DNA of 64,000 nt from Niastella vici (lineage in GTDB: Bacteria; Bacteroidota; Bacteroidia; Chitinophagales; Chitinophagaceae). Both the position numbers and the translations under genes were made by a program. The stretch lies in NCBI RefSeq assembly GCF_002077945.1, contig NZ_LVYD01000056.1:62001-126000 (forward strand), in the 5' to 3' direction. The notes under the pieces are model-generated. The model saw nothing but the letters and a program-made list of their open reading frames with translations, ran no database searches and was not told the origin of the DNA. Position 1 is the first letter of the stretch, and each line of letters begins with the position of its first letter. Below are positions 2,487 through 60,160 of the stretch, piece after piece.

Positions 2487-2553
2487 CCAGGTACCGGTTT
2501 CCGGTTGCCGGTTCCCGGGAAAAACCGGTACCTGGTAGCTGGTAACCGGTAAC
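2487..2553. repeat. Heptamer-array hairpin element A1 (GTTNCCR units)
   Basis: This starts two bases after the AraC stop. The left arm holds consecutive 7-base units GTTTCCG, GTTGCCG and GTTCCCG, and the right arm holds the complementary unit type (CTGGTAG, CTGGTAA, CCGGTAA). A perfect 14-bp stem joins 2487-2500 to 2522-2535, with the variable heptamers in the loop. It is the shortest of four related elements; the others are at 53897, 56163 and 60055. Confidence 0.8.
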
Positions 2554-2599
2554 AGTAACTATTATTACATTGAAAAATTAACTCTGGTATTTCGTTATT

Positions 2600-3757
2600 A
2601 TGTCTGGTGCATTACTTACTGACAATCCCCGCAAATCCCGTATAGCAACGGCGGTATTCTTTTTTGTTTCGGGTTTTGGTTTTTCATCCTGGGCCTCCCG
2701 GATTCCCACCATTCAGCAGAACCTGCATTTAAGTGAAGGAAAGCTGGGTGCGGTATTGTTCGCCCTTCCGGCCGGCTTAATGTGCACGCTGCCGGTTACC
2801 GGTTATTTATTACGGCGGTTCAGCAGCCGGCATATTATGTTTACCGGTGCGGTGCTGTTCAACATCATGTTGTGCCTGGTAGGTTTTGCCCAGCAAACCT
2901 GGCAACTGGTGCTGGTGTTGTTCTTTTTTGGTTCATCGCGCAACCTCTTTAACATTTCGGCGAATGCGCAATCAATAGGTGTGCAAAAATTATACGACCG
3001 TTCCATCATTGCCACCTTTCACGGCATCTGGAGCGTGGCCGGTTTTGCTGCAGCAGCCGTAGGGTCGCTGGTGGTTTCGTTCAGCGTTCATCCTTCCTGG
3101 CATTTTCTCACGGTTGCTATTATATTAACCAGTCTTTGTACTTTCTTTTTCAGGGATACGGTAAATCAACGGCCGCAACCCCACGAGCGTTTACAGAAAA
3201 CAACCATCCGCATACCCGATAAAGCCCTGTTGAAACTCGGCTTCATTTGTTTTGCTTCCATGGCCTGCGAAGGCACCATGTACGACTGGAGCGCCATCTA
3301 TTTAAAAAAAGCGGTTCATGCTTCCAAAGAAATGGCAACCGCCGGTTATGCGGTATACATGGTGGCTATGATGTTCGGCCGTTTTACCGGTGATAAATTA
3401 GCCAACAGGATCGGGGTGAAAGCCATGTTGAAATACAGTGGATTGTTCATTATGGCAGGACTGTTGCTCGCTGCTGCCCTTCCTTATACAGTGACCACTG
3501 CACTGGGTTTTATGATGACGGGCTTTGGCGTATCGTGTGTTGTGCCCATGGTGTTCAGTATGGCGGGAAGAATAAAACACATGAGTGGCGGACCCGCCAT
3601 TGCAGGCGTTTCAACCATTGGTTATTTTGGTTTCCTGATAGTACCCCCTACTGTTGGGTTTATTGCAGAACAATTTAACCTGCGCTGGTCAATAGCATTG
3701 ATTGCCCTGTTCGGCGCTTTGATCACCTGGCTGGTGAGTGAATTGAAAGAAAACTAA
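2600..3757 (+). CDS. MFS transporter
   Basis: A 385-residue polytopic membrane protein with about twelve hydrophobic segments and the length of a major facilitator protein. It begins with a short cytoplasmic tail and TM1 (AVFFFVSGFGFSSWASRIP). The loop after TM2 carries YLLRRFSSRHIMF, a degenerate MFS motif A, and the second half repeats it as MFGRFTGDKLANRIG. The closest general resemblance is to the FucP/YbjJ-like group, but the substrate cannot be read from the sequence. It is co-oriented with the AraC gene and ends at a hairpin terminator shared with the convergent chitinase gene. Confidence 0.85.
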   Translation: MSGALLTDNPRKSRIATAVFFFVSGFGFSSWASRIPTIQQNLHLSEGKLGAVLFALPAGLMCTLPVTGYLLRRFSSRHIMFTGAVLFNIMLCLVGFAQQTWQLVLVLFFFGSSRNLFNISANAQSIGVQKLYDRSIIATFHGIWSVAGFAAAAVGSLVVSFSVHPSWHFLTVAIILTSLCTFFFRDTVNQRPQPHERLQKTTIRIPDKALLKLGFICFASMACEGTMYDWSAIYLKKAVHASKEMATAGYAVYMVAMMFGRFTGDKLANRIGVKAMLKYSGLFIMAGLLLAAALPYTVTTALGFMMTGFGVSCVVPMVFSMAGRIKHMSGGPAIAGVSTIGYFGFLIVPPTVGFIAEQFNLRWSIALIALFGALITWLVSELKEN

Positions 3758-3764
3758 AATAAAA

Positions 3765-3825
3765 AAACAAGGAACATGGAATATTGGGTGGGGGTACCCG
3801 CAATTCCTGTTCCTTGTTTGGTTTT
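3765..3825. terminator. Bidirectional intrinsic terminator
   Basis: Stem AAACAAGGAACA(T)GGAAT at 3765-3782 pairs with ATTCCTGTTCCTTGTTT at 3803-3819, with one bulge. It is flanked by A and T runs on the two sides. It sits between the convergent MFS and chitinase genes, as expected for a shared terminator. Confidence 0.75.
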
Positions 3826-3907
3826 TCCAATAACCTGTACGCCGAAGCAACCAGGAATACACTAACTCCTAACGCCTCGCTTCCTCATCGTCGTTTATAG
3901 TTCCATT

Positions 3908-6900
3908 CTACAGTTTCACCAGGCGGGTTGTGCTCACATTGCCTGTTTTCCTGTTGGTAATGCGAACGATCCAGATCCCTTTCGACAGGTTACCTGTTTG
4001 AATAGTGATGGCACTTACACCGGTAGAAGAAGCAGTAAATGAACGGCTGCTCACGGAATAACCACGCACGCTTTGTACTTCTACAATCAACTGATCGCCG
4101 GCTTCTGCATACTTCAACACCTGTGCGGTGGTACCCTCTGTGGGGTTGGGAACAACAGCTGCTCCACCTACTGTAGTGGCAAGGCTGGTTGCTGCACTGG
4201 TCCTTGTAGTAGCACTGCAGGCGCCTAATGGCTGCCACCAATAGTCAGCAGTGCCAGGTGTCACGTTGTACAACGCATCAGACAGGCTTACATACAAATA
4301 ACCATTGTAAGTTACCTTATCACCTTTGTTGTAAATTTTTGGATAAGGCTGGTATGCAGCCACACCGGCGCAATTCCCTGTATTGGTGCTACCGCTTACT
4401 GTTACAGTTGCAGCAGATGAAGTGGTAACGGCACCTGCATTATCAGTTGCTTTAGCCGTAATGGTATACGTACCGGCTGCTACATTGCTCCAGGTATAGC
4501 TGTAAGGCGCTGCAAATACTTCACTCAACAGTGTGCTGCCATTGTAGAAACCTACTTTGCTTACAGAACCATCTGCATCACTGGCAGTTGCCGTAATAGC
4601 AATGCTGGCCGGTGCCGTGTAGCTGGCGCCTGATGCAGGAGCTGTAAGGGTTACAACAGGGGCTGTATTGGTACCGCCACCGCCGCTGCAATCACTCACA
4701 TATTTCCAGGGCATTCCATCGCCGGTGTTCAGGTCGGGCTGTTGGTTTTGCGTCCACCATTTTGCTTCATAGATCTTGTTGTTATATACCACCTGGTTGC
4801 CGCCTACATATACAGCAGTTGCGCTGTAAGCTGCAATACCACTGCAACCGGTACCACCGCCGGTTCCAACCACAATGGTAACAGCTGCTGATGTTGTAAC
4901 AGCGCCGCCATTATCGGTTGCTTTGGCAGTAAGGGTATATGTACCGTTTGTTACGTTACTCCAGGTAACAGTATAGGGAGAAGCTGTTGCAGAACCGATG
5001 CTGGTGCTGCCGTTAAAGAATTCCACTTTAGTTACAGAACCATCGGCATCGCTGGCTGAAGCTGTTATTGAAACAGTCGCAGGCGATGTATAGGTAGCAT
5101 TGTTAGCCGGTGCAGTAATGCTCACCGTGGGCGCATTGTTGCCGGGTGTGCTACCGAAGAAATAATCATAATAATTATTGGCGAACTCATCACCATTGGT
5201 CTTATCCCAATTGATTGACCAGGTCATGATACCTCTTAAATTTGGATAACCGCCTGCTTTCCGCAATGTATAACCACCACCAAATGAAGTTCCTTTGGTC
5301 AGGTAATTCAACGCTTGCTTTACACTGGCAGGGGCCAGGTAACCACCGCTTGGTGCAGCAGCTGGTACTGCAGGCAAGCCAAACGCTACCTGGTCTTCAC
5401 GCAATGCAGGGAAAGTTTGATTTGTTCCTGATACGGGGAAACCGTACAGCAACATTTCTGTCATAGAAACAATGAAATCAGGCGTAGCCTGTGAGTATAC
5501 TTTGTTATCCATGCCGGTTACCGAACCGGTGTTGTATAACTGGGGATGAATGAAAGTAAGTTGGTCGCGTAACCCATAGATCAGCGGCAGGTACGCACCC
5601 ACCAGCGGTGAATATTGTGCGCCATATGCTGTTTGCACATAATAAGTTTCTGGCGCCATGGTAAGCCAGCAGTCTTTTCCTTTCGCCTTCCGGTAGTTAA
5701 TGATCTCTTTTACGGCAGCGATCAGGTTCACCACTTTGGCCGTTGTGGGGCTCATAAAGTTATTATCGCCGTTATCCAATTGCAGGGAAAGACCGCCTTC
5801 GAGGTCAAGGTCAAATCCATCGAAATTGTAATTATCGATAATGGATTCCATAGAACTTATAAAGGCCGCCTTGTTAGCAGCAGTCGCCAATACAACAGTA
5901 CCGTTTTGCCCGCCCAATGACAACAACACTTTGCGGCCTTGTGATTGCAGGGTGGCAATGTCTGATTTGAAATCAGCATCGGTTGTACCTTCCGGCGCAA
6001 AGCTGATGGTAGAATAATCTGAACCACTTACGCCAAAGGCCACCTGTATAACATTGTATTTCGAATTCACATCGCGCAGGCGGATGTAAGGCGGCGTGGT
6101 GGAAACCCAGTTATGCCAGTAACCTACGATCACTTTTGAGGTATTGCCACCACCGGTATTGCTGTTCACCGTTACAGCAACGGCTGAAGAGGTAGTGGTA
6201 GCGCCACTGTTATCGGTTGCCTTTGCAGTTATTGAATAGCTGCCGGCCGCTACATTGCTCCAGGTAACAGTATAGGGAGAAGAAGTTGCAGAACCAATGC
6301 TGGTGCTGCCGTTAAAGAATTCCACTTTTGAAATGGAGCCATCAGCATCTGCTGCACTGGCAGTAAGCGTAACGCTTGCTGGTGCTGTATAGGTGCTGCC
6401 ACTTGCAGGCGCAGTGATAGAAACAGTTGGTGATTGATTACCGGTGCTGCCGCTGGCAAACACCTGGTTGATCTTGTTCACCAGTTTTGATTTGGTATTG
6501 GGACAGAAGATCAGCTTTCCATAAGCCGTGGTGCTGCTGGTCATATCGGTCATGTCGCCAAATACCTGCCACACAATTACACCAGCCAGGCCATTGTCTT
6601 TTATATATTGTGCCTTGGCACCAATTGACTGTTCGTTATCGTAGCTTAAGAAATAATTGCCTTTAACTTTATAAGGCACTTTCGCTACATCATCCCAGTA
6701 TTCTGTCCAGCCCGAACCACTGCCGGTTGCCAGCTGAATTTCGCTGTAGGCCGGGGTTCCATCCCACAGGTCTTTTTGCCAGTTGGTAAAGTCGGCGCAG
6801 GTTTGAATGGGGCCATCGGGTTGAACCGTTTCGGCGCGTTTTACCGTAGCTGCATTCACTGCAGCAGTGCCGCTACAAACCACCCCTCTTCCGTAGAAGG

Positions 6901-7996: not shown

Positions 7997-8994
7997 TTTT
8001 TAATTAACAATACATACATAATAAATGGAACAAAAAATTTATAAGATCCTGTTGGGCCAAAGCAATACCATATGCATGCGCGTACAGGCACACATAGTAC
8101 AGCAGGGAACCCAACAGGATAGCAAAGGATAACGGGAATGGATCATAAGACAGGCATACAGACGCCGAAAAAAGGCAAGCCTGTTACCGGCCCATTTCAT
8201 TCCGTTGTAATAAATCGACTTTGGTTGAGAAATTGTAAGCAGCCTGTAAACACCCGATGGCTATACAGATCATAACAGCTGCAACAATTGAAGAAGGTAT
8301 TTAGTAAAAGCGTAATGTAGTTGAAGAAGCAGATGCAAAGTAAAAACTGTTTAAAATACTTTTATTACGAAAGCAGTTTTATTTTTTTCCACATTATTGG
8401 TCGCCGTTATACGCAGGCTGATAATCAGAACAGAATATATATACTTCAACAAAACATTTCTGCGAACCCGTATTCTTAAGATATTACATTAATGCATTGT
8501 TATATAGGAGTGCTAATTAATTGTATCAGCTATGAATGCCGCTCACTGAAATTATCGAGTAATTTTACTCTTTTTCATCCTGAGAATCATTTATAGCTTT
8601 GAAATTCCAAAACGATTTAGCGGTTATGAGTTAATTGGAGTGATTTTTGTCTTTTACCTTCTTTGTAAAAATCACTTGACTGTAAGTAGTAATGTAAGTT
8701 GTAGCAGCGTCCCTTAGCACTAAGCGGGAAATATGCCCGCATCCCTGGAATATCCATTTTTCCCCTTTCATTTTCTATTGTCACCCTATACCGGGTTACG
8801 GTTGCACGTTTCGTATTACGCATACCGTGCATGCCTGTACCGCCCGGTTCCCGGCTTTAGCCGGGAGTTACCAAATGTCTATAGCCAGTTGCAGGCTTAG
8901 GGCATGGGTACGTGTTATGCATTATGCATAAAGCATGATGCGTGGCTATTGCTATGCTTTTAACTATTCACCATTAAAACCAAACTGTTTTTCT
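7997..8994. other. Long intergenic region between chitinase and GH16 genes
   Basis: About 1 kb without a supportable gene, AT-rich in its middle, between divergent secreted-enzyme genes and probably holding both promoters. It has a perfect hairpin TCCCGGC-TTTA-GCCGGGA at 8849-8866 and a plus-strand TAGCTTTG at 8594-8601 that fits the -7 consensus, though without a clear -33 element. The 71-codon minus-strand frame at 8617-8832 has no recognisable protein features. Confidence 0.4.
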
Positions 8995-12630: not shown

Positions 12631-12663
12631 TATAAGCGCTCCTTTAAGTTAAGTAGTTAATAA

Positions 12664-12745
12664 CCCTGTCAGGTCTTAAGCCGTGCGCACACATATTTAT
12701 AATATGTATGCAACATGGAATGCTTTTTGACCTGACAGGGTTTTC
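12664..12745. terminator. CCCTGTCAGGTC inverted-repeat hairpin, probable terminator
   Basis: A perfect 12-bp inverted repeat, CCCTGTCAGGTC at 12664-12675 and GACCTGACAGGG at 12729-12740, is followed by TTTTCTTTT. The loop contains a further small hairpin (ACATATT-TAT-AATATGT). It lies between the GH18 and protease genes. A related element is at 50764-50823. Confidence 0.6.
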
Positions 12746-12778
12746 TTTTACATCCATACCAAAACTTAATCACGCACC

Positions 12779-16496: not shown

Positions 16497-16508
16497 GCTA
16501 TAAAATTT

Positions 16509-16747
16509 ATTTTCGCTCAGGTATCAACAACAGAGCATCGGCCACCACTGACCCACCGGCATTGGCTGCCTGAATGGTTACATTTGATCTATTTTCGCTC
16601 AGGTATCAACAACACAGCATCAGCCACCACTGCCCCATCGGCATTGGTTGCCTGTATGGTTACATTTGATCTATTTTCGCTCAGGTATCAACAACACAGC
16701 ATCGGCCACCACTGCCCCATCGGCATTGGCTGCCTGTATGGTTACAT
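16509..16747. repeat. 82-bp tandem repeat, three copies, from the 3' end of the oxidoreductase gene
   Basis: Copies begin at 16509, 16591 and 16673, each opening ATTTTCGCTCAGGTATCAAC. The unit is exactly 82 bp, and the third copy is the genuine 3' end of the minus-strand oxidoreductase gene. The two outer copies lie beyond its stop codon. Because 82 is not a multiple of three they could not extend the same frame. They differ by a few substitutions, so the duplication is not brand new. Confidence 0.9.
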
Positions 16748-18683
16748 GCGCTTTGGAGCCGGCCGGTAATTTATATTTTCCCACTGCTATCCATTCGCCT
16801 GAGGTTTGTCCCTGTACCTGCATATCCCTTTTCTTCAATGTAATGCGGGTTTCCCGGTTGCCATCATAAACAGCCACCATAGTTTGCGAAGCCAGCTTAT
16901 TATAAGCAGGCAGCATATATACATAGATGTGATAGTATCCTTCCTTCTCAATGACCGGCTGGTATTGCACTGAACGTTCTTCGGCAGAAGGCTCATCGGC
17001 AGTAAGCACCGAAGGGCCATACCCCAGATGCTCTTTAGTTGTCCAGCTCCCTTTTATTTGTACCTGCGCTGTATTGTCATTATCAATTACGATCTCTGGC
17101 AGGCTGCCATCAGCAAGCGGATTTGTTTTAAGCGCCTGCTGCAGTTCGGGCACATTTATTTCCTGTACACCGGCTTTGGCTTTAATGGCCATGGAAGCAG
17201 CCGTGGCAGCAACCTGCCCCAGCACCATAAATACCGGTTCCATACGAATGGAACCATACGCTATATGACTGGCAGATAAACACACCGGCACCAGCAGGTT
17301 CTTACATTCTTTTGCCCCTGGAATGATGGAACGATATGATATCGGGTATGGACCGAAACCGCCTACCTGCACATCCCCTTCATTCTTCACCATGTCATTC
17401 ACCACAATGCGTTCGCAATTGTGTGAATCCATGGTATAAGCAGCCAAACCAATACCATCCGTTACAACTTCTTTTCCCTGGCAATTAGCTTGCGTCATTA
17501 CATAGTCGCCGATCATTCTGCGTGCTTCGCGCACATACAATTGTGGCGTAAAGTTATTGTTGTTGGTAAATTCATCTTTCGGATAGCCCCAGTTCAACAT
17601 CTCCTTCCGCAGGTTTTCAGGCATCCGCTGATCATGACCAATGAAATACAACAGCCCTTTTATGTATACCTCATGTTGGTGCCTGATGGTATTCCGTATT
17701 TCCTGATCTCCTTCGGGATAGCCATAGTTCATCCCGATCATATCGGTTGAAAAAGGACCATTGTTATTGATATCTGTTTTGTGATTGGGCATGCGGTCGA
17801 TCTTCAAAATTGCGCCGAGGCTGGCAGCGGGCTTTTTTTGCAGTAAACGCAACAATAATTCATACCTGGTTGAATCATATGCTGAGGGCCGGGTAATGGC
17901 AATGCGGTTGGCTGCATCGTCGGTAAGGCAGATCCTGAAATTATAAGCCTGCACTTTTGTGTCGGCCGAACCGTTTGCCAACAACATGGCATCGGAAATG
18001 CCCCACAATAAACCGCTCTCCCGCCTTCCGGGTATCTTATAAGGATCAACCCCATCGGGGAACTGGTGTTTGTCGCGCAGCTGTACGCCATTAAAAGATT
18101 CATTGTACAGGCTGCCCGATTCACGGCCCACTGTAAACGAAACCCCGGCCTTGGCCATCAGATCGCCTTCATAAGAACAATCGATGAACATTTTCGCTGC
18201 TACCCTTTTTGTAAGGACCTGTCCTGCTGCATTACGATAGTTCAGTTCTATTTCTTTTATATATCCGAATTCATTGCTAACGTGCTGCAGCGTATGTTCC
18301 AGCGCCACTTCCACCTTAGCCAATTTAAGGTATTGTGAGAACACGGCTGTGGCCACGTGGGGTTCAAAGATCCAGGATTCAAATTGTCCATATTGCTTAC
18401 CAACCCGCCGGTAAAAATCAAGCCCTAACCCCGATACAGCATATTTATTACCAATATCGGTAAATCCCAAGCCACCCGAAGTTAACCCGCCAATATGTTT
18501 GCCGGGATCAATCAGCAATACAGAATGATGTTGCATTTTAGCCGTATAGGCTGCAATTACACCAGCCGAAGTGGCTCCATATATACAGATATCAACCTGT
18601 ACAGGTTTTGCATGTTGAGCATAAGCGGGGAAAACAAAGAAGAGTATACCAACGGCAAGCATGCGCAACTGTAGCATAGGCAA
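16671..18683 (-). CDS. Secreted FAD-dependent oxidoreductase with C-terminal golvesin/xanthan-lyase-type domain
   Basis: A 670-residue protein: signal peptide to about residue 22 (FPAYAQ); Rossmann FAD-binding start DICIYGATSAGVIAAYTA (~30-47); a second FAD motif around GLTSGGLGFTDIGN; FIDCSYEGDLMAKAG (~168-182), typical of the FAD_oxidored (PF12831-like) family. Another family motif is near VVTDGIGLAAYTMDSHNCER. The last ~130 residues form a beta-rich domain resembling the golvesin/xanthan-lyase C-terminal type. Such proteins are common in Bacteroidota polysaccharide loci, but the substrate is unproven. The gene ends within the last copy of an 82-bp tandem repeat. Confidence 0.8.
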   Translation of the reverse strand: MPMLQLRMLAVGILFFVFPAYAQHAKPVQVDICIYGATSAGVIAAYTAKMQHHSVLLIDPGKHIGGLTSGGLGFTDIGNKYAVSGLGLDFYRRVGKQYGQFESWIFEPHVATAVFSQYLKLAKVEVALEHTLQHVSNEFGYIKEIELNYRNAAGQVLTKRVAAKMFIDCSYEGDLMAKAGVSFTVGRESGSLYNESFNGVQLRDKHQFPDGVDPYKIPGRRESGLLWGISDAMLLANGSADTKVQAYNFRICLTDDAANRIAITRPSAYDSTRYELLLRLLQKKPAASLGAILKIDRMPNHKTDINNNGPFSTDMIGMNYGYPEGDQEIRNTIRHQHEVYIKGLLYFIGHDQRMPENLRKEMLNWGYPKDEFTNNNNFTPQLYVREARRMIGDYVMTQANCQGKEVVTDGIGLAAYTMDSHNCERIVVNDMVKNEGDVQVGGFGPYPISYRSIIPGAKECKNLLVPVCLSASHIAYGSIRMEPVFMVLGQVAATAASMAIKAKAGVQEINVPELQQALKTNPLADGSLPEIVIDNDNTAQVQIKGSWTTKEHLGYGPSVLTADEPSAEERSVQYQPVIEKEGYYHIYVYMLPAYNKLASQTMVAVYDGNRETRITLKKRDMQVQGQTSGEWIAVGKYKLPAGSKAHVTIQAANADGAVVADAVLLIPERK

Positions 18684-30026: not shown

Positions 30027-30410
30027 ACTTTACGCTATTAATCGAGGTTGTTTAAAAAACAAAAGAATTAATAGCCGCCCGTGAGGATTATACCTGAATG
30101 ACTACCTGCTGCATTCATAAAAGCAAACAGCTGTACTACTAAACAGAGCTATAAGTAGTACAACACCTGCCTTATATATTAAAAAACCTCATAAGCGGCT
30201 ACTTTTGCAAAAACGATGCAATGTTAGTTTTCAGAAAAAACCTGTGTGTTAAGCGCACATTATGTTAATTTTAATTCTAAAGCTTACTTTTAATATGAGG
30301 TACATAATTTATTTTGAAGCCTGAGCCTGAAACGAGGGGCCTGCACTTAGCACTTAGCGCTTGGGGCCTGCAGCTTTCCTTCTTATCTTCAATCCTTAAC
30401 GCATCATTGC
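30027..30410. other. Divergent intergenic region, susC / purine permease
   Basis: No gene seen. It contains a plus-strand TACTTTTG near 30201 that fits the -7 consensus TAnnTTTG (no good -33). It also holds the short heptamer array at 30344-30364. Confidence 0.35.
30344..30364. repeat. Short heptamer array (CRCTTRG units) within a direct repeat
   Basis: Units CACTTAG, CACTTAG and CGCTTGG run head to tail and are bracketed by the direct repeat GGGGCCTGCA (about 30336-30345 and 30363-30372). Only three units and one arm, so support is modest. The 7-base period matches the other arrays in this window. Confidence 0.45.
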
Positions 30411-36114: not shown

Positions 36115-36218
36115 AAGTAACAGAAGTAAGAAGTAAGAGGTATGAAGCGTACTAATTTCATAACTCGTACTTCTTCTTCTTACTTCCTACCTCCTACTTC
36201 TTACCTCCTACCTCCTTC
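36115..36218. repeat. Heptamer-array hairpin element B1 (CYTCYTA / TARGARG units)
   Basis: Left arm GAAGTAA GAAGTAA GAGGTAT, a short core with ACTAATTTCATAACT, then right arm CTTCTTA CTTCCTA CCTCCTA CTTCTTA CCTCCTA. The units are 7 bases long and vary only at pyrimidine positions 2 and 5. The right arm overlaps the 3' end of the minus-strand gene ending at 36194 and supplies its last codons and stop. Confidence 0.85.
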
Positions 36219-36922
36219 CCCCCGGCATAAAAATGCATGTCGGCGGCATACTTCGCCCCGCTTTCGGTCAGCTTGTTTATTTCCCTGATCTTCTCTAACC
36301 AAAGTCCCCTTACCTCCAGCAGCTGTATATAATACTTATGCGTTTTATCCTGCTTATTCAAAACCGCATTGTATCCTTTTTTATTCAGATACTCATTCAT
36401 ACCACCGATCACCCCTTTTGCTTTCTTTACAAAACCGGGAAGGATGCGCTGATAAGCCTTTAGTATTTTTTCAGCCTGTATACCGTAATCGGTTTCGCTT
36501 TTGACAATAGAGTCCAATGCATTATTGATGACCCTTTGAAAGTTATCCAACTCATAAAAGTAATCGGTAGTTGCCGCCTGTTGTTTCTTTTTCAACTCCG
36601 GTTCTTCGGCAATAACCACTTTAATGAAATCATCGTACCGCTTTCTTTCCTGGTCAAAACGGCCGGCCAGCATCGATAACACCGCGCTCTGGTGCTGTGA
36701 CTCATCAGCCAGTAAATTAATTTGAGCCTGAACAGAACTTTCATATTGTTGATAGACTGATTTTTTTCCTTTTGGATAAAACTGCCCGTATGCTTCGGTT
36801 ACAGTGGCCGATACAGGTGGCTGCTTCTCCATCAACTGCATGATGTCAAATGCAGGCGATTGTGCATTGCTTATATAAAACAAAAGCAGCGCACCAGTTA
36901 TCATTGGTATTTTGTACAACAT
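36194..36922 (-). CDS. Secreted helical protein, function unknown, C-terminus encoded by repeat
   Basis: 242 residues: signal peptide (ALLLFYISNAQS, ~8-20), then an almost wholly alpha-helical, coiled-coil-like body (SSVQAQINLLADESQHQSAV, DNFQRVINNALDSIVKSETD). I recognise no family. The final residues KEVGGKK and the TAG stop are encoded by the heptamer array at 36190-36218, so the natural C-terminus has probably been replaced by insertion of the element. It diverges from the GH89 gene. Confidence 0.75.
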   Translation of the reverse strand: MLYKIPMITGALLLFYISNAQSPAFDIMQLMEKQPPVSATVTEAYGQFYPKGKKSVYQQYESSVQAQINLLADESQHQSAVLSMLAGRFDQERKRYDDFIKVVIAEEPELKKKQQAATTDYFYELDNFQRVINNALDSIVKSETDYGIQAEKILKAYQRILPGFVKKAKGVIGGMNEYLNKKGYNAVLNKQDKTHKYYIQLLEVRGLWLEKIREINKLTESGAKYAADMHFYAGGKEVGGKK

Positions 36923-37010: not shown

Positions 37011-37083
37011 TGAAGAAGGAATTAAGAAGTAGGAAAAGTATGAATTTCGGGCAGTACTTCCTACCTCTTACCTCCTACTTCTC
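37011..37083. repeat. Heptamer-array hairpin element B2
   Basis: Left arm with GAAGAAG, TAAGAAG and TAGGAAA-like units, a core GTATGAATTTCGGGCAGTAC, and right arm CTTCCTA CCTCTTA CCTCCTA CTTCTCA. It sits in the divergent region between the unknown secreted gene and GH89. Confidence 0.75.
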
Positions 37084-37384: not shown

Positions 37385-39595
37385 ATGCTAAAACAAGTAC
37401 GAACTCCCGGATCATTCAGCTGCATGCTGTTGCTCCTGGTTGCACTGCTGCCCCTAACCATTGCTGCCCAATTAAACGCCAAAGCTTCTTACGCGCTTAT
37501 TCAACGCGTTATTCCCAAACAGGCTGCCTCGTTTGTCGTAGAATCCGTAGCTGCTGAGAACGGAAAAGACCTGTTTGAAGTGGAAAGCCGCAACGGAAAA
37601 ATCGTATTGCGTGGTAATAATGGCACGGCTGTGGCTTCGGCTTTATACCATTATCTTACCGAATATTGCCATTGCCAGATCACCTGGAACGGTAGTAACC
37701 TGAACCTGCCCGCCACCCTGCCCATTGTTACAAAAAAAGTACACAAGGCCACTCCCTATACTTATCGTTACTATCTCAACTACTGCACCTTTAATTACAG
37801 TATGAGCTGGTGGAACTGGGAACGCTGGCAAAAAGAAATTGACTGGATGGCCCTGCATGGCATTAATATGCCGCTGGCCATTACCGGCGAAGAATACACC
37901 TGGTATGTTGTATATAAAGAAATGGGATTTACTGATGAAGAACTGAAAGACTTCTTTAGTGGTCCGGCATATTTTGGCTGGTTCTGGATGGGCAACCTCG
38001 ATGCCTGGGGTGGCCCGCTACCCCTGAGCTGGATGAAAAGTCATAAAGGGTTGCAGGAAAAAATATTGGCCCGTGAACGCGAACTGGGCATGAAACCGGT
38101 ATTGCCTGCCTTCACCGGTCACGTTCCGCCGGCATTTAAAAAGAAATTCCCGAATGCAAAACTGAAAGCCACCAACTGGACGAATGGTTTTGCCGATACC
38201 TATATCCTTAATTCGGAAGATCCGTTGTTTGCCGAGATCGGAAAACGGTTCCTGCAAACTCAAACCAAATTATTTGGCACCGATCACCTGTATTCAGCCG
38301 ATACATTCAATGAAAATGAACCGCCTTCTGATGACCCGGCTTTTTTATCGGCCCTGAGTGCGCGTATTTATGAAGGCATGAAACAAGCCGATACCGCCGC
38401 CACCTGGGTAATGCAGGGCTGGTTATTCTACAGTGACCGAAAATTCTGGAAAGCGCCACAAATAGAAGCATTGCTGAAAGCGGTGCCGGGCGATAAAATG
38501 CTCCTGCTCGACCTGGCCGCTGAAATTGAACCTGTGTGGAAACGCACCGATGCTTTTTATGGAAAGCCCTGGATCTGGAATATGTTGCACAATTTCGGTG
38601 GTAATGTAAACCTGTTCGGCCGCCTGGATGGCGTAGCGGGTGGCCCCGCGCTGGCCCTGAACGATAAAGCATCGGGCAAAATGTGGGGCATTGGGTTAAC
38701 CATGGAAGCCATTGAACAAAATCCAGTGATGTATGAACTCATGATGCAACATACCTGGCAAACAGAACCCATTGAGCTGGATGCCTGGATCCCCAAATAT
38801 GTGTTGAACCGATATACCACTACCAGCAAAGACCTTATAAATGCCTGGCAAATTTTACGGCAAACTGTGTACAATGGAAAAGAGATCCGCGATGGCGCCG
38901 AATCGATCATTACCGGCCGGCCAACCTTCGATAGTACCACTATTTGGACGCGCACCAAACTGAATTATGCCCGGGAAGACCTGCTACCGGCCTGGGACCT
39001 GTTTATACAGGCAGCGTCGAAAGGCGTCAAAACCGATGGTTTCCGTTACGACCTTGTTGATGTAACCCGCCAGGTGCTTGCCAACTATGCCGGGCCGTTA
39101 CAAAGGAAATGGGTGAATGCTTATAAAGAAAAAGACACCGCTGCTTTCACTACATACAGCAAAGCATTTTTAGAACTGATCAGCGATATGGATGTATTGC
39201 TGGCCACCCGCAAGGATTTTATGCTGGGTCCCTGGTTAGCCGCGGCGCGCAGTAATGGCACCACGCCTGCAGAAAAAGCATTGTATGAGCAGAACGCCCG
39301 CGATCTTATCACCCTCTGGGGCGATGCCAACAGTCCCCTGCATGAATATTCAAACCGTCAGTGGAGCGGTTTGCTGAATGATTTTTACAAACCGCGCTGG
39401 CAGCAATTCTTTGCGCTGCTGCAACTGTCATTGCGCACCGGTAGTGACCCCGATCTGAAACAATTTGATGAAACCATCCGCAACTGGGAATGGAAATGGG
39501 TGAAGACGGAAATGGTGTTTCCGGTAGTGGCGATTGGCGATCCGGTGCAGGTTTCGCAAAAAATGTATCAGAAGTACAGGAAGGAGATGAAATAA
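37385..39595 (+). CDS. GH89 alpha-N-acetylglucosaminidase
   Basis: 736 residues: signal peptide (LLPLTIAAQ, ~1-28), small N-terminal alpha/beta domain (~35-115), then a TIM-barrel from RYYLNYCTFNYSMSWWNWER (~128) and an all-helical C-terminal domain (~455-736). It has the two glutamates of the family, Glu310 in DTFNENEPP and Glu441 in TMEAIEQNP. Their 131-residue spacing matches human NAGLU (Glu316/Glu446). Such enzymes remove terminal alpha-linked GlcNAc from glycosaminoglycans or mucin-type glycans, in the periplasm or on the surface. The stop codon TAA starts a heptamer element. Confidence 0.93.
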   Translation: MLKQVRTPGSFSCMLLLLVALLPLTIAAQLNAKASYALIQRVIPKQAASFVVESVAAENGKDLFEVESRNGKIVLRGNNGTAVASALYHYLTEYCHCQITWNGSNLNLPATLPIVTKKVHKATPYTYRYYLNYCTFNYSMSWWNWERWQKEIDWMALHGINMPLAITGEEYTWYVVYKEMGFTDEELKDFFSGPAYFGWFWMGNLDAWGGPLPLSWMKSHKGLQEKILARERELGMKPVLPAFTGHVPPAFKKKFPNAKLKATNWTNGFADTYILNSEDPLFAEIGKRFLQTQTKLFGTDHLYSADTFNENEPPSDDPAFLSALSARIYEGMKQADTAATWVMQGWLFYSDRKFWKAPQIEALLKAVPGDKMLLLDLAAEIEPVWKRTDAFYGKPWIWNMLHNFGGNVNLFGRLDGVAGGPALALNDKASGKMWGIGLTMEAIEQNPVMYELMMQHTWQTEPIELDAWIPKYVLNRYTTTSKDLINAWQILRQTVYNGKEIRDGAESIITGRPTFDSTTIWTRTKLNYAREDLLPAWDLFIQAASKGVKTDGFRYDLVDVTRQVLANYAGPLQRKWVNAYKEKDTAAFTTYSKAFLELISDMDVLLATRKDFMLGPWLAAARSNGTTPAEKALYEQNARDLITLWGDANSPLHEYSNRQWSGLLNDFYKPRWQQFFALLQLSLRTGSDPDLKQFDETIRNWEWKWVKTEMVFPVVAIGDPVQVSQKMYQKYRKEMK

Positions 39596-39687
39596 GAGGT
39601 AGGAAGTAAGAAGAGTATTAATTTCGAAGTTCCCGACTATTTGTAGATCTTTTAATCATATTTGAGCTTCATACTTCATACTTCCTA
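39593..39687. repeat. Heptamer-array hairpin element B3
   Basis: Units TAAGAGG TAGGAAG TAAGAAG start exactly at the TAA stop of the GH89 gene. The core includes GTATTAATTTCGAAG, and the right arm is CTTCATA CTTCATA CTTCCTA. Confidence 0.8.
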
Positions 39688-39742
39688 ATTCAGTATCTTA
39701 AAACAAAGTGGTTTCACCTAAAAGAAAAGCACTTTTATAAAC

Positions 39743-40824: not shown

Positions 40825-40970
40825 TGTAAGAAGTAGGAAGGAAGAAGTAGGAAAAACCTGGAATTTCCGGCCTCGCCTTGCTTATTTCTGCCTCACTAAC
40901 ATGAAGTTAAGCCATAATAAGGGTTTTCGAAAATAAGACTCTTCATACTTCTTACCTCCTACTTCCTATT
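40825..40970. repeat. Heptamer-array hairpin element B4
   Basis: Left arm TAAGAAG TAGGAAG (GAAG) AAGTAGG, then a ~95-base middle including GGAATTTCCGG, and right arm CTTCATA CTTCTTA CCTCCTA CTTCCTA. The right arm contains the TAG stop codon (40966-40968, minus strand) of the TonB-dependent receptor gene. Confidence 0.8.
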
Positions 40971-47679: not shown

Positions 47680-48996
47680 TTACTGCATAAAAGTACTTAG
47701 CGGGATCCTATTTTTCATGTTCCTTTGGCGAACCTCATAGGCAATCTCACAATCTTTGGGTAATAGCTTTTTAATTTCTGCGGCCCGGTCTGGTTGAATA
47801 CGGGTTAACTGTATCTGTAACCATTTTAGTTTCCTGAATTCCTGAATTTCATCCGGAATATTTAAGAGCGGGTTCATGCTTATTGTTAGCCACTCTAAAT
47901 TGGCTAACTTAAAAAAATCCTGGGGAAGACTGGTAATTTGATTATTGTCCAGCTCAAGTCTTTTTAGGCTCTTCAGACCAGATATAAACGCTGGAAATTC
48001 TGAGATTGAATTATTGGTTAATGAAAGCTTTTCAAGATTATTCAATAAACCTGCTTCCTGAGGGAAAATTTTGATCTTATTATCATCAAGAAATAATTGT
48101 TTTAGTTTAGGAAATTGTGTGTATTCTTCTGGAAAGCTGGTAAGCTTGTTCTGAGATAAATTTAGCAGCGTTAAGTTTTGTAAATCTTTGACCTCCTCTG
48201 GAAGGCTGGTTAGCTTATTACAGGATACAATTAGCACCGTTAAGCTTCGTAAATCTTTTATTTCTTTTGGAAGGCTGGTAAACTTATTGCAGGATACATA
48301 TAGCCGCGTTAGGTTTTGTAAATCTTTGATTTCTTCTGGAAGCGTTGTGAGGTAATTTTCTGATAGGTCTAAAGTTATCAATCTGATAAGCCGTCCTATC
48401 GATGCCGGTAACACCTGTAGTCTATTGGCACTTAAACCTAGATATTCAAGACTTTTCAGATCCCCGATTTGGTCAGGTAAATATTCAATTTTATTGTCCT
48501 GGAATGAAACCTCTACAAGATTCTGAAGATTTCCAAACTCAACAGGTAAGCGTGAAATGTTATTATTGCCGATATGTAATTCCCGAAGATTAGTCAGTTC
48601 CCCGATTTCTGGAGAGATAACTGATAGCTTACAGCTATGTACTGAAAGATATTCTAATTTTTTGCAAAACTTTATTCCTCTTGGAAGAGTAGTAAAGGAA
48701 TTATAATCTAAAAAAAGAGTTCTTAGATTTGGGAGCTTAAAAATTTCATCGGGTAAAGTTGTTAAGTCGCATTTCTCGATATACAAAAATTGTAAGCTAT
48801 CTAATGTCCCGATCTTTTTTAAATCAGCCCGGGTAATCTTTTGATTATAAAGACTAAGATTATATACTTTTTCTTCCGCTTTAAAGGCTTCACTAAGACT
48901 CTTATAAACCTTTTTATCAGGAACATACCTCCAGTTTTGGGAATATCCTTTAAATGTGAGCAAGAGAAAAGCTGCTAATGTAAGTATACGGTTCAT
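47680..48996 (-). CDS. Secreted leucine-rich-repeat protein
   Basis: 438 residues: signal peptide (AAFLLLTFKGYSQ, ~7-20), then about fifteen 23-residue leucine-rich repeats (~50-400), for example LPEEIKDLQNLTRLYVSCNK and SLPKEIKDLRSLTVLIVSCN. They have the LxxLPxxIxxLxxLxxLxLxxNx pattern of Shoc2/SDS22-type repeats. The middle repeats are nearly identical in DNA as well, pointing to recent repeat expansion. No catalytic domain is visible, so it is likely a surface or periplasmic binding protein. Base composition is more AT-rich than in flanking regions. Confidence 0.88.
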   Translation of the reverse strand: MNRILTLAAFLLLTFKGYSQNWRYVPDKKVYKSLSEAFKAEEKVYNLSLYNQKITRADLKKIGTLDSLQFLYIEKCDLTTLPDEIFKLPNLRTLFLDYNSFTTLPRGIKFCKKLEYLSVHSCKLSVISPEIGELTNLRELHIGNNNISRLPVEFGNLQNLVEVSFQDNKIEYLPDQIGDLKSLEYLGLSANRLQVLPASIGRLIRLITLDLSENYLTTLPEEIKDLQNLTRLYVSCNKFTSLPKEIKDLRSLTVLIVSCNKLTSLPEEVKDLQNLTLLNLSQNKLTSFPEEYTQFPKLKQLFLDDNKIKIFPQEAGLLNNLEKLSLTNNSISEFPAFISGLKSLKRLELDNNQITSLPQDFFKLANLEWLTISMNPLLNIPDEIQEFRKLKWLQIQLTRIQPDRAAEIKKLLPKDCEIAYEVRQRNMKNRIPLSTFMQ

Positions 48997-53893: not shown

Positions 53894-53896
53894 AGC

Positions 53897-54006
53897 GTTC
53901 CCGGTTCCCGGTTTCCGGTTACCGGGTAAAAAATTCGGGCTGCCCGATTACAATTAGAATAATCAACATTCAAGGCCCGGCAACTGGTAACCGGTAACTG
54001 GTAACT
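53897..54006. repeat. Heptamer-array hairpin element A2
   Basis: Left units GTTCCCG GTTCCCG GTTTCCG GTTACCG. The core GGTAAAAAATTCGGGCTGCC has a small inner stem, followed by ATTCAAGGCCCGGCAACTGG. Right units CTGGTAA CCGGTAA CTGGTAA. It lies between the LacI and GH67 genes and shares core and arms with element A3. Confidence 0.85.
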
Positions 54007-54015
54007 AAAAGACAT

Positions 54016-56160: not shown

Positions 56161-56162
56161 TA

Positions 56163-56311
56163 GTTACCGGTTACCAGTTACCAGTTGCCGGGAAATTCAG
56201 TTACCGGTTGCCAGTTTCCGGTTACCGGGGTAAAAAATTCGGAAACCCCGACAGCAATAAGAGTGATCGAAATTCAAGGCCTGGCAACTGGTAACCGGCA
56301 ACCGGGAACAG
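56163..56311. repeat. Heptamer-array hairpin element A3 (longest copy)
   Basis: Left arm GTTACCG GTTACCA GTTACCA GTTGCCG, then a second block GTTACCG GTTGCCA GTTTCCG GTTACCG. The core GGGGTAAAAAATTCGGAAAC is followed by CCCCG and then ATTCAAGGCCTGGCAACTGG. Right arm is GGTAACCGGCAACCGG. It lies between the GH67 and SDR genes. The doubled left arm suggests internal duplication. Confidence 0.85.
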
Positions 56312-56360
56312 GAACATAGACCACTAACCCTGAAATTAAAGAATGATAAACCTGGTATAA

Positions 56361-57104
56361 ATGAATAATCAATTAGTAGCGATCGTGACCGGTGGTGGTT
56401 CGGGCATTGGCCTGGCCATTACAGAGAAATTTGTACAGCACAACATCACTACGGTCATTGTAGGCCGTGATCCCGAAAAACTGCAACAGGCCAAACAAAA
56501 ACTGGGCGCGCTGTGCATTCCCATGGTGGCCGACCTCAGCAACCTCGATGCCATCCCCAACCTGGTAAAAGAAGTAATTACACAATTTGGCCATATCGAT
56601 ATACTGGTGAACAATGCCGGCATCAATATGAAGAAGGAATTCACCGAGGTTACCAATGAAGATTTTCAAAAAGTGATACAGACCAATTTAGTGGGTGTAT
56701 TTGTATTGACGCGTGAAGTGGTAAAGACCATGTTGCCCAATAAAAAAGGCAGCATTGTGAACATCAGTTCCATGGCGGCGCAATATGGTATTCCGAAAGT
56801 AATTGCTTACTCGGCTTCCAAAACTGCTATCGAGGGTATGACGCGGGCCATGGCCACTGAACTATCGCCACAGGGCATTCGCATCAATTGCATTGCGCCC
56901 GGTTTTATTGCCACCGATATGACCTCCAAAGCATTTAACCAGGATGTTGACCGTAAGAACAAGGCGTTGGGCCGTACGCCCATGGGGGTGATGGGGATGC
57001 CTGCCGATATCGGCGATGCCGCCCTGTTCCTGGCCACTGATAGTGCCAAATATATCACCGGCGTGGTATTACCTGTTGACGGCGGCAATTCGATCGGATT
57101 TTAA
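56361..57104 (+). CDS. SDR-family oxidoreductase, candidate fructuronate (mannonate) reductase
   Basis: 247 residues of a classical short-chain dehydrogenase: cofactor loop TGGGSGIGLAI (~10-20), NNAGINMKK (~85-93), catalytic Ser in NISSMAAQYG, YSASK (Tyr-x-x-x-Lys, ~154-158) and the end TGVVLPVDGG. Overall it resembles the gluconate-5-dehydrogenase/KduD group. Its place between two alpha-glucuronidase genes and opposite uxuA makes reduction of fructuronate to mannonate the best guess. In many Bacteroidota an SDR appears to take the place of UxuB. The substrate is inference. Confidence 0.85.
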   Translation: MNNQLVAIVTGGGSGIGLAITEKFVQHNITTVIVGRDPEKLQQAKQKLGALCIPMVADLSNLDAIPNLVKEVITQFGHIDILVNNAGINMKKEFTEVTNEDFQKVIQTNLVGVFVLTREVVKTMLPNKKGSIVNISSMAAQYGIPKVIAYSASKTAIEGMTRAMATELSPQGIRINCIAPGFIATDMTSKAFNQDVDRKNKALGRTPMGVMGMPADIGDAALFLATDSAKYITGVVLPVDGGNSIGF

Positions 57105-57127
57105 GTTTATCGAAATAAAGACGCAGC

Positions 57128-57216
57128 TAACCAAACAGCTCAATCAGCTGATCAGTTTGGTTAAAGCTTACTAAGAAAAGTATAAGGGCATCGTTGATTG
57201 TACGATGCCCCTCTTT
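57128..57216 (+). terminator. Two hairpins between SDR and GH115 genes, second a likely terminator
   Basis: TAACCAAAC...GTTTGGTTA (about 57128-57163) is a nine-base stem. GGGCATCG (57186-57193) pairs with CGATGCCC (57203-57210) and is followed by CTCTTTT, an intrinsic-terminator shape just 15 bp before the GH115 start. It may instead be an attenuator. Confidence 0.6.
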
Positions 57217-57230
57217 TCGCTGAATTCCAT

Positions 57231-60047
57231 ATGAAAAGAACGATACTGACCATATTGATGGGGCTCGCCCTTCATTCCCTTTTTGCCCAACAACCGGTTG
57301 GCGCCTTCCCCATTGTTGCCAGCAAATCGGCTACCCCCATTTATGTTGATGCCGGCGATCACTGGCTGGTACAAAAAGCAGCCGCTTTACTGCAAACCGA
57401 TATTGAAAAAGTTACCGGCAAAAAACCCGATACCGCCCATACGCATCCCCGTGGCACTGCCAAAAATATTATCGTCATTGGTTCGCTCGATCAATCCCTG
57501 CTCATCAGGCAATTGGTGGCCCTGAAAAAATTATCCGTCGACAGTATAAAAGATAAATGGGAAGCTTTTCAGCTCACCGTTATACCCAATCCCTTTCCCG
57601 GCGTAAATAATGCCCTGGTGATTGCGGGCAGTGACAGGCGCGGAACTGCTTACGGTGTTTTTGAATTGTCGAAACAGCTGGGCGTATCGCCCTGGTACTG
57701 GTGGGCCGATGTGCCGGTGAAAACGGCCCGCGAATGCTGGTATAACCCGCAAATAAGACAATACCAACACCCCGGCGTACGATACCGCGGTATTTTTCTC
57801 AATGACGAAGCACCGGCTTTAGCCGGCTGGAGCAAAGCTACCTTCGGCGGGTTCAATCATTTATTTTATGAAAAAGTGTTTGAGCTGTTGCTTCGCCTGA
57901 AAGCCAATTACCTGTGGCCGGCCATGTGGGGCAATGCTTTTTATGACGATGATACGCTCAATGCCGTGATGGCCGACCGGTATGGGATTGTAATAGGCAC
58001 CAGTCACCACGAACCCATGTTGCGCGCGCATGATGAATGGCGGCGCTATGGCAGCGGTAAATGGAATTACGATAGCAACGAAATGCGTTTGAAGCAATTT
58101 TGGGCGGAAGGCATTCGCCGCAAACGGGGGTATGAAAGCATTGTCACTGTTGGCATGCGGGGCGATGGTGATGAGCCCATGAGCGAAAAAAGCAATATCG
58201 CCCTGCTGGAAAAAATTGTTGCCGATCAACGCCAGATCATTGCCGATGTAACCGGTGCAGCCGCTACGGCCACACCCCAATTGTGGGCACTGTATAAAGA
58301 AGTGCAGGACTATTACGACCGGGGCATGCGGGTGCCCGATGATATTACCTTGTTATTATGCGATGATAACTGGGGCAACATCCGCAAGCTGCCAAAACGG
58401 GATGCCCCTGCACGGGCTGGTGGTTATGGCATTTATTATCATTTCGATTATGTGGGCGGCCCGCGCAATTACAAATGGATCAACACCAATACCATTCCCC
58501 GCACCTGGGAGCAAATGCATCTGGCCTGGGAATATGGGGTGAACCGCATCTGGATCGTGAATGTAGGAGACCTGAAGCCCATGGAATTGCCCATCTCGTT
58601 CTTTCTTGATTATGCGTGGAACCCTGCTGCGTACCCGGTTGATCCTTCCCGTGGTTATACCGAAAAATGGGCGGCCCAGCAATTCGGAAAAACCTATGCA
58701 GCAGATATCGCTTACCTGCTTACCAAATACACGCAGTACAACAGCCGCCGCAAACCGGAGTTGCTGGCGCCTGATACCTATAGCCAGGTAAATTACCAGG
58801 AAGCAGATAAAGTGGTGCGCGATTACAATGAACTGGTTCTACTGGCTGAAAAATTATACAAGCTCATCCCTGCCCAATATAAAGATGCATTCTACCAGTT
58901 GGTGTTGTACCCGGTAAAGGCCAGCGCCAACCTGAATGAACTGTATGTTACAGCCGGCAAAAATCATTTGTATGCAAAGCAGAGCCGTGTAGCAACTAAT
59001 GAGCTCGCCAACCGCGTGCAGGAATTATATGATACCGATTCCCTGCTGAGCCTGCATTACAACAAGGTAATGGCCAATGGAAAGTGGGACCACATGATGG
59101 ACCAAACGCATATCGGTTATACCTGGTGGCAACAACCGCCGGTGAACAGGATGCCGGCTGTTAAAATTAGAAAGCCGGCCATTCATACCCTTATGGCCAT
59201 TGCCATTGAAGGTTCAGAAACGGTGTGGTGGTCCAATGATACAGTTAAAGCTGTGCTGCCCGCATTCAGTAATCATCGGGGTGATAAACATTATATCGAT
59301 GTGGTTAACGCAGGCAACGCTTCATTTAATTATACCATAAAACCAGCTGGTTCCTGGCTACAGCTATCACAAACCAGTGGCCGGGTTGAAAAAGAACAAC
59401 GGATATGGGTGCAGGTGAAATGGCAGGCTGTGCCGGAAGGAAAGCACCAGGCGCCCATCACTATTAGCGGTCCGAATGGTGATGTGACTGTATTTGCTAC
59501 CCTGGAGAAAACAACTGTACCGGGGCTCAAACAGCAAACACATGTGGAAGCAGATGGATATATTTCTATGGATGCAGACCATTTAGCAAACGTAGTAGAT
59601 GATGCGGTCACGCATTGGGTCAGGATCGCAGATATAGGCAGGACCGGTAACGGCATGACCTTTTTTCCGCCATTTCCACGACCGGCCACCTTTAGGGATA
59701 CTTCGGCCCATCTTGAATACGACCTGTTCACTACCGATACAGGCGCCACGAAGGTGATGGTATACTGCTCGCCTACCCTGCCCTTCAATGAATCGAACGG
59801 GTTACGGTATGGCATTTCCTTCGATGAGGAGGCGCCACAGTTGGTGAATTTGCATGCAGATAATTCTGAAAATGCCTGGGCGCAATCGGTAAGCGATAAT
59901 ATCCGCATCAGCACCTCTGTTCACACGTTGCATAAGGCGGGGCATCATATGTTGAAGATCTGGGCGGTTGATCCCGGTGTGGTGCTGCAGAAGATTGTGA
60001 TTGACTGGGGTGGGGTGCGGAAGAGCTATTTGGGGCCGGAGAGGTAA
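57231..60047 (+). CDS. GH115 alpha-glucuronidase
   Basis: 938 residues from MKRTILTILMG, with signal peptide (~1-21, LHSLFAQ); an in-frame ATG at 57198 lies inside the hairpin region. GH115 landmarks: SDRRGTAYGVFELSKQLGVS, WWADVPVK, LKANYLWPAMWGNAFYDDD, GTSHHEPMLRA, GMRGDGDEPM, LLLCDDNWGN and GIYYHFDYVGGPRNYKW. A C-terminal Ig-like plus beta-sandwich part extends from ~680. GH115 cleaves glucuronic acid from internal as well as terminal xylose units, complementing GH67, which needs terminal substitution. Length is in the family's range. Confidence 0.95.
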   Translation: MKRTILTILMGLALHSLFAQQPVGAFPIVASKSATPIYVDAGDHWLVQKAAALLQTDIEKVTGKKPDTAHTHPRGTAKNIIVIGSLDQSLLIRQLVALKKLSVDSIKDKWEAFQLTVIPNPFPGVNNALVIAGSDRRGTAYGVFELSKQLGVSPWYWWADVPVKTARECWYNPQIRQYQHPGVRYRGIFLNDEAPALAGWSKATFGGFNHLFYEKVFELLLRLKANYLWPAMWGNAFYDDDTLNAVMADRYGIVIGTSHHEPMLRAHDEWRRYGSGKWNYDSNEMRLKQFWAEGIRRKRGYESIVTVGMRGDGDEPMSEKSNIALLEKIVADQRQIIADVTGAAATATPQLWALYKEVQDYYDRGMRVPDDITLLLCDDNWGNIRKLPKRDAPARAGGYGIYYHFDYVGGPRNYKWINTNTIPRTWEQMHLAWEYGVNRIWIVNVGDLKPMELPISFFLDYAWNPAAYPVDPSRGYTEKWAAQQFGKTYAADIAYLLTKYTQYNSRRKPELLAPDTYSQVNYQEADKVVRDYNELVLLAEKLYKLIPAQYKDAFYQLVLYPVKASANLNELYVTAGKNHLYAKQSRVATNELANRVQELYDTDSLLSLHYNKVMANGKWDHMMDQTHIGYTWWQQPPVNRMPAVKIRKPAIHTLMAIAIEGSETVWWSNDTVKAVLPAFSNHRGDKHYIDVVNAGNASFNYTIKPAGSWLQLSQTSGRVEKEQRIWVQVKWQAVPEGKHQAPITISGPNGDVTVFATLEKTTVPGLKQQTHVEADGYISMDADHLANVVDDAVTHWVRIADIGRTGNGMTFFPPFPRPATFRDTSAHLEYDLFTTDTGATKVMVYCSPTLPFNESNGLRYGISFDEEAPQLVNLHADNSENAWAQSVSDNIRISTSVHTLHKAGHHMLKIWAVDPGVVLQKIVIDWGGVRKSYLGPER

Positions 60048-60054
60048 TTTGTAT

Positions 60055-60160
60055 AGTTACCTGTTACCAGTTGCCTGTTACCGGGGCTCATTTGCAGGCC
60101 GAATATTAGCTAGCACGCTGACATTAAGGACCTGGAAACCGGGAACTGGTACCCGGTAAC
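60055..60160. repeat. Heptamer-array hairpin element A4
   Basis: Left units GTTACCT GTTACCA GTTGCCT GTTACCG; middle ends ACATTAAGGACCTGG (compare ATTCAAGGCCTGG in A3); right units CTGGAAA CCGGGAA CTGGTAC CCGGTAA. Between the GH115 and GH10 genes. Confidence 0.8.

Follow-up and report, generated by a model that had tools for sequence, protein, structure and literature searches.

Inverted arrays of degenerate heptamers form dispersed intergenic hairpins in Niastella vici and its relatives

The intergenic regions of Niastella vici, a soil bacterium, and of other members of the Niastella/Longitalea genus carry numerous elements in which short tandem arrays of degenerate 7-nt units face inverted counterparts across a core, so that each element could fold into an imperfect hairpin. 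At least eight such elements, built on one design from unrelated unit families, had been proposed in a first-pass annotation of a stretch of 64,000 nucleotides of the N. vici genome (hereafter, the window); our analysis confirms the hairpins as a real and genome-wide feature and supports both the unrelated families and the hairpin capacity. The known kinds to which they compare are heptamer-repeat elements and REPIN-like elements, and in the dominant GTTNCCR family the architecture is strict. We consider the best reading, to which we assign a probability of roughly 0.4, to be that these are REPIN-like mobile hairpins, one family of which is perhaps served by the product of a single-copy Y1 transposase gene, tnpA. 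That one heptamer family tracks such a gene hints at how repeats of this kind spread, and the combination of many unit families, one period and layout, and one tracking transposase gene offers a concrete test, namely, the action of TnpA on heptamer hairpins.

Seven pairs of 7-periodic arrays in inverted orientation were detected in the window by a generic scan, compared with zero in each of 100 first-order Markov resamples. Period-7 segments number 17, compared with a resample mean of 0.5 and a maximum of 3; under a stricter cut, ten segments have a period of 7, and every other period between 3 and 24 is represented by 0–3 segments. On reading the window, all eight proposed intergenic elements were found to have inverted partners (Table 1), including a weak pair at 37 kb that falls below the threshold of the pair scan and is hence absent from its seven. 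Known structured RNA families were not encountered in the window (no Rfam match at the gathering score), and a tRNA search returned none. The window also contains two tandem repeats of longer unit, one at 16508–16747 (82-bp unit, 2.9 copies, 94% match), which reaches into the end of the open reading frame (ORF) 16671–18683, and one at 48124–48342 (69-bp unit, 3.2 copies, 80% match), which lies inside ORF 47680–48996.

Table 1. Heptamer elements and arrays in the window (uncurated gene calls, based on the longest open frames)
Position	Strand	Feature	Genomic context	Remark
2490–2553	.	GTTNCCR hairpin, 4+4 units, 8-nt loop	between AraC-type regulator and MFS transporter genes	
8915–8944	.	single-arm TTATGCA array	gap of ~1 kb	other heptamer arrays in this gap in 3/3 relatives compared
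30343–30370	.	single-arm GCACTTA array		scan found no inverted partner
36122–36222	.	GARGTAD-family element	between convergent genes	right array enters 3' end of ORF 36194–36922
37015–37082	.	degenerate GARGTAD-family hairpin	between divergent genes	by eye, below pair-scan threshold
39590–39692	.	GARGTAD-family element	convergent genes on either side	
40829–40968	.	GARGTAD-family element with long core	between two minus-strand genes	
53897–53924	+	canonical element, left arm, four GTTNCCR units	gap from LacI-type gene to GH67 gene	element overall, 53897–54005
53925–53977	.	canonical element, 53-nt core	same LacI-type/GH67 gap	
53978–54005	-	canonical element, right arm, four inverted units	same LacI-type/GH67 gap	
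56163–56190	+	extra left arm, four units		outside canonical element; array region with inverted partner including this arm, 56163–56309
56200–56309	.	4 units, 54-nt core, 4 units	between GH67 and SDR genes	by eye inside scanned pair
60056–60160	.	4 units, 49-nt core, 4 units	between GH115 and GH10 genes	by eye; pair scan finds the pair in another register

The elements are not isolated to the window. In 464 kb of the same 10.06-Mb genome (10,058,349 bases; G000), the search for inverted pairs returned 49 hits at period 7 and five at period 8, with periods 5, 6 and 9 unrepresented, hits being counted when at least 60 bp apart, so that one long element can count twice; in 400 kb from five relatives, the corresponding numbers were 22, nine and none. 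Likewise, 320 kb of one contig contain 41 segments of period 7, eight of period 8 and 0–1 at each of 5, 6, 9, 10 and 11. All ten Niastella/Longitalea genomes contain the three-unit GTTNCCR pattern, with 4 to 650 matches per genome. Across the phylum, nine period-7 segments were found in 6 of 39 sampled genomes (20 kb each, apart from one of 1 kb and one of 13 kb). Two further kinds of array were observed along the way. A rarer second class, of period 8 (with units such as TTGTTAAC), sometimes occupies the same gaps, as in relatives, for instance, across L061–L080. Moreover, G000 carries giant, near-uniform heptamer arrays quite unlike the degenerate four-unit arms: one of GAAGTAA (75 units, contig C24 near 289 kb) and one of GTCAATG (93 units, contig C13 near 318 kb).

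Most counts on architecture derive from 942,023 of the 10,058,349 bases of G000, part of which was fetched because of matches there, and cover 37 GTTNCCR elements with both arms, together with 16 forward arrays that lack a partner. Exactly four units make up 54 of the 74 paired arms, a regularity that argues against a simple tandem repeat (microsatellite) set by slippage alone and bears out the earlier remark that the arrays are unlike slippage-only microsatellites. The 4+4 arrangement is found in 21 of the 37 elements, and the core measures 52–54 nt in 15 of the 22 elements with equal arms (8, 25, 31, 31, 49, 91 and 91 nt in the others). The outer boundary is sharp at GTT...AAC, the array beginning at the G of GTT; the base preceding GTT is A or G in 45 of 57 arms, and partial units of greater length are seldom found, the element ends amounting to CA-GTT...AAC-TG at most. 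Target duplications of 2–11 bp show no clear excess in the flanks of 34 elements (4 against 2.7 expected at 2 bp, 0 against 0.9 at 3 bp and 1 against 0.3 at 4 bp), and a DDE-type MITE was rejected because these 34 elements show no clear sign of the expected target-site duplication.

Outside GTTNCCR, the four-unit rule is a tendency only. GARGTAD arms contain four units in 16 of 34 cases and three in 9 of 34, with only 3 of 17 pairs being 4+4, and arrays of the other families are most often 26–32 nt long (22/55 in the window's genome and 45/139 in relatives), lengths of 19–25 nt being almost as common (18/55 and 42/139, respectively). In the relative G002, the paired elements have cores of 51, 52, 53, 53 and 61 nt, only one of the five is 4+4, and 19 arms are unpaired. 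The AATTYCGG-like string that the first-pass annotation considered common to the cores does occur in a number of GARGTAD elements and in a single core type of GTTNCCR; it is absent from the dispersed GTTNCCR core type for which we searched (GGACCTTAATGCGGAATGCC...) and thus stands as a mark of some core types rather than as a general core feature.

When this core type was used as a query together with the inner arms, 46 genome matches were obtained at E up to 0.01, 34 of which cover 79 or more of the 88 query positions; as scoring extended to 40 of the 150 first-look candidates, these 34 full copies are a lower bound. The source copy has 95% identity to the query and the other 33 full copies 69–86%. 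The copies are distributed over many contigs, and inspection by eye of 28 of the 30 fetched loci showed differing flanks, indicating that they are dispersed rather than products of local expansion. No near-identical copies were seen, which implies that this core type did not spread recently, nor were strain-level empty sites seen.

The two arms of an element are far from perfect complements, and their disagreements are not randomly placed. Among the 84 unit cells of the 21 GTTNCCR 4+4 elements, the arms agree in 79–84 at positions 1, 3, 5 and 6 and in 68 at position 2, but in 27 and 22 at positions 4 and 7, respectively, so that the fixed variable positions described previously are real. At position 7, the 22 agreements compare with 41.3 in shuffles and with 39.8 expected after core orientation; in the 14 clearly oriented elements, the value is 14 of 56 against 23.0 (p = 0.003), and the mismatch effect is seen only when the units are aligned in register (20 elements). 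Position 4 shows less of an effect (p = 0.04 without orientation, 0.05 with orientation and 0.21 for the 14 elements whose orientation is clear). The oriented strings show that a main subfamily has much of its mismatch pattern in common through descent, so that part of the signal probably reflects ancestry. When folded, the actual arms are less stable than swapped arms in 18 of 21 elements with RNA parameters on the plus strand, and in 20 of 21 on the minus strand and also with DNA parameters. Selection for pairing, which the annotation had suggested, is therefore unsupported, the arms mismatching at the variable position beyond chance, and selection for full pairing is rejected on the comparison of actual with swapped arms; we read the hairpin as one that keeps its mismatches. 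In other species, three 4+4 elements, a small number, gave agreement at position 7 in 2 of 12 cells against 3.5 expected (p = 0.36). The architecture was not replicated in a set of GTTNCCR arrays from viral contigs, which may derive from unrelated bacteria (54 stretches with 13 distinct pairs and 92 unpaired arms): its five 4+4 cases have cores of 3–38 nt and agree at position 7 in 16 of 20 cells. A viral GARGTAD set of 18 stretches comprised three pairs and 20 unpaired arms.

These properties bear directly on a mutational origin, in which slippage, a process described as favouring 7-mers in many bacteria, would grow the heptamers and template switching at hairpins would make the inverted partners, with neither mobility nor function. 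The giant near-uniform arrays of 75 and 93 units, the gradual change of units along some arrays and the position of heptanucleotides as the top category of long simple repeats in most surveyed genomes (Mrazek 2007, as cited in the part of PMC4679880 available to us) would all be in line with such a process. Nevertheless, we regard it as rather unlikely, because the exact preference for four units and the 53-nt core are unexpected from slippage, the cores are dispersed homologues, and template switching would erase arm mismatches, which instead exceed chance.

The behaviour of orthologous gaps was analysed in one region of 64–80 kb from each of six genomes (the window and five relatives), a slot being the gap between the same genes; 26 slots were represented in at least four genomes, and 39 slots in at least three (165 cells) entered the final test. 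Concordantly occupied pairs numbered 42, compared with 19.8 expected from a permutation stratified by genome, orientation and residual length (0 of 3000 permutations), and 42 compared with 22.1 when short gaps were excluded (p = 0.0003). By contrast, units from the same slot were within one mismatch of each other in 8 of the 42 pairs, against 15.8% of 688 different-slot pairs. Orthologous gaps thus tend to stay occupied across species, their units being no more alike than elsewhere, which is unusual for a neutral repeat or for a sequence-specific binding site. For instance, the gap preceding the GH67 gene is occupied by GTTNCCR arrays in the window and by AGCTGCA and GAACTGA arrays in G002, and is empty in G006. 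In 518 kb, array blocks occupied 20 of 229 co-directional, 6 of 48 convergent and, least often, 2 of 48 divergent gaps, and half of the co-directional blocks (10 of 20) begin no more than 16 nt from the stop codon upstream. A gap of another kind, at 12631–12778 of the window, contains the stem CCTGTCAGG...CCTGACAGG, or a close version of it, in six of six genomes and a heptamer array in none.

Conserved occupancy by changing units, together with the placement close behind stop codons and the scarcity in divergent gaps, is what would be expected of RNA hairpins that, within an mRNA, insulate, stabilize or attenuate the neighbouring genes. Any such hairpin would suffice, the units would be interchangeable, and the mismatches, reflected in the poorer pairing of actual than of swapped arms, would keep RNase III from cutting the transcript. 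We nonetheless consider this explanation unlikely: homologous cores are dispersed in many copies, and the same slot bias would be expected if insertions survive only where harmless. Least probable is a binding platform on which a DNA-binding protein, for example, a nucleoid protein or transposase, contacts each heptamer at five fixed positions, which would suit the high agreement at positions 1, 3, 5 and 6 (79–84 of 84) and 2 (68 of 84) while core copies diverge to 69%, as well as the location of arm mismatches at variable positions, but the unit families, despite a common period of 7 and often about four units, are unrelated in sequence, so that one sequence-specific protein cannot serve them all.

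Heptamer repeats have been reported to be over-represented in many bacteria, slippage and G-quadruplexes having been offered as reasons in the available parts of two reports (PMC4679880; PMC4692102). Among the literature records listed by our searches, none describes an inverted heptamer element from Bacteroidota, in keeping with the earlier statement on that phylum. Outside it, inverted pairs are already known for the GGGAATC arrays of Xanthomonas, with 70 in Xcc and 75 in Xac and a preference for four units that was related to G-quadruplexes (Rehm et al. 2015, PMC4692102, in the part accessible to us). As described there, the Xanthomonas arrays resemble those reported here in consisting of degenerate heptamers (GGGANTN) with two variable positions and preferably four units, and in being intergenic, close behind the upstream gene and arranged in inverted pairs; long arrays are located at different genes in Xcc and Xac. 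Unlike the single G-rich unit of Xanthomonas, however, several units lacking G-tracts occur here and likewise keep to four, so that G-quadruplexes cannot be what sets the number in this case, and some other cause must be sought, at least for these elements. Neither a constant core length nor a linked gene is seen for GGGAATC within the same portion of that paper. The TAACTGA repeats of Beggiatoaceae, a range of Cyanobacteria and five Bacteroidetes are intergenic heptamer arrays as well, but differ, judging from the sections at hand, in being direct repeats of one fixed unit that are almost never inverted (MacGregor 2015, PMC4679880).

With REPINs and their RAYT transposases, as far as the accounts available to us describe them, the elements share inverted arms that form one hairpin around a spacer, many dispersed intergenic copies, the lack of a clear target duplication and a single-copy HUH Y1 gene adjoining its own family, which here applies only to GKSAATS and only in this genus. 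In REPINs, each arm is a REP palindrome whose foot is of the GTAG or CGTC type. The arms described here differ, on the same accounts, in being heptamer arrays rather than a single REP palindrome, and the Y1 protein differs from TnpA-REP (class 2) in being of the IS200-like type, with a Y---Q--HH motif.

A profile search identified one Y1_Tnp (PF01797) gene in the window's genome, located between the DAHP-synthase gene (aroG) and aroB and encoding a protein of 142 aa with the motifs DHMH and YIEKQEEHH. One Y1 gene of this type is present in each of the ten genomes of the genus, the eight aligned proteins being 87–91% identical to that of the window's genome. TnpA scores 59.5 bits against NCBIfam NF033573 (cut-off 55) and 22.5 against REP_Tyr_transpos (cut-off 80), and its Y---Q--HH motif, short length, low copy number and occurrence in Bacteroidetes fit HuH subclass 1.2, a placement made by motif, length and copy number. 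Members of this subclass share the Y---Q--HH motif, measure about 148 aa and occur at low copy number in Bacteroidetes and Cyanobacteria, and no REP sequences are listed for them in the part of the source available (PMC6006769). Unlike the members listed there, the gene described here is adjoined by a heptamer hairpin in 9 of the 10 genomes of one genus, the gap before tnpA in the remaining genome (G009) being 14 bp.

Unlike those in other slots, the units in the tnpA gap are within one mismatch of each other in all 36 genome pairs, being GTSAATG in six genomes and C-type (GKSAATC and variants) in three. The cores fall into at least two groups, one comprising G000, G002, G004, G005 and G007 and the other G003 and G008, those of G001 and G006 being weakly related to the others. 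In nine of nine genomes, the variant that dominates the genome is the one beside tnpA (Fisher p = 0.012, the genomes being related). Matches to GTSAATS/GKSAATC, two patterns that overlap in GTSAATC and whose counts are inflated by long arrays, number 269/4 in G000, 189/5 in G001, 59/13 in G002, 321/14 in G004, 124/27 in G005 and 86/63 in G007 (a genome that is 61% complete) for the GTSAATG type, and 3/51 in G003, 2/156 in G006 and 32/384 in G008 for the C-type; G009, which has no element at tnpA, yields 2/0. The count for G000 includes the 93-unit array, and subtraction of its ~90 matches leaves the direction unchanged; the 63 C-type matches of G007, a genome of the GTSAATG type, exceed the 51 of G003, which is C-type. 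In a tree of aroG and GH67 from nine genomes (G002 left out), the two types are interleaved, G008 grouping with G005 and G003 with G007. The tnpA gap may merely sample whichever variant dominates.

Beyond the genus, Y1 orthologues with 56–57% identity occupy the same operon, 2–3 nt behind aroG, in Flavitalea, a Chitinophagaceae bacterium and a MAG labelled Sphingobacteriales; none of these three genomes has an element beside the gene, and two of the three 20-kb loci are devoid of heptamer arrays. In the phylum sample (up to 20 kb each), 22 genomes have this kind of Y1 gene and 17 lack it; period-7 arrays turned up in 4 of the former and 2 of the latter, which shows no association. Consequently, heptamer arrays at large neither require tnpA nor follow from its presence. 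No linked gene was found for unit families other than GKSAATS. Weak further Y1-like matches (nine loci in seven genomes) had no adjoining arrays but one, a short array in L123, and, among 30 other Bacteroidota Y1 loci, the 13 with a reading frame included a heptamer array only at L320, ~1.5 kb away. Other small hairpins were noticed by eye beside the Y1 genes of L320, L331 and L349, one of them in the gap that precedes the gene in G262.

From the architecture, dispersal, slot behaviour and tnpA association, we infer the following route for REPIN-like mobile hairpins. The elements would be non-coding and probably mobile hairpins of about 110 bp, each arm typically a tandem run of four heptamers (28 nt), with a core of ~53 nt separating the two inverted arms and mismatches at two unit positions. 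They would spread as dispersed copies into intergenic gaps, often just behind a stop codon, moving as single-stranded hairpins that a HUH Y1 transposase cuts and joins without leaving a target duplication. The best candidate enzyme, for the GKSAATS family only, is the single-copy TnpA of the aroG–aroB operon. Subsequently, slippage and turnover might let unit number and sequence drift, giving rise to unrelated units in the same gap of different species. We know of no Y1 enzyme that explains a period of exactly 7.

A broader proposal, which we consider improbable, is that inverted four-heptamer hairpins constitute a general class of bacterial mobile elements, recognized more by period and shape than by unit sequence and served by orphan transposases of HuH subclass 1.2. 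If true, this subclass would gain its missing substrate, and the surplus of heptanucleotide repeats long noted in Cyanobacteria, Bacteroidota and Xanthomonas would be explained.

The element that precedes tnpA in L111 contains a palindrome, CCCCGATGAAATCGGGG, between the heptamer units of its right arm, and similar palindromes are present in gaps of relatives.
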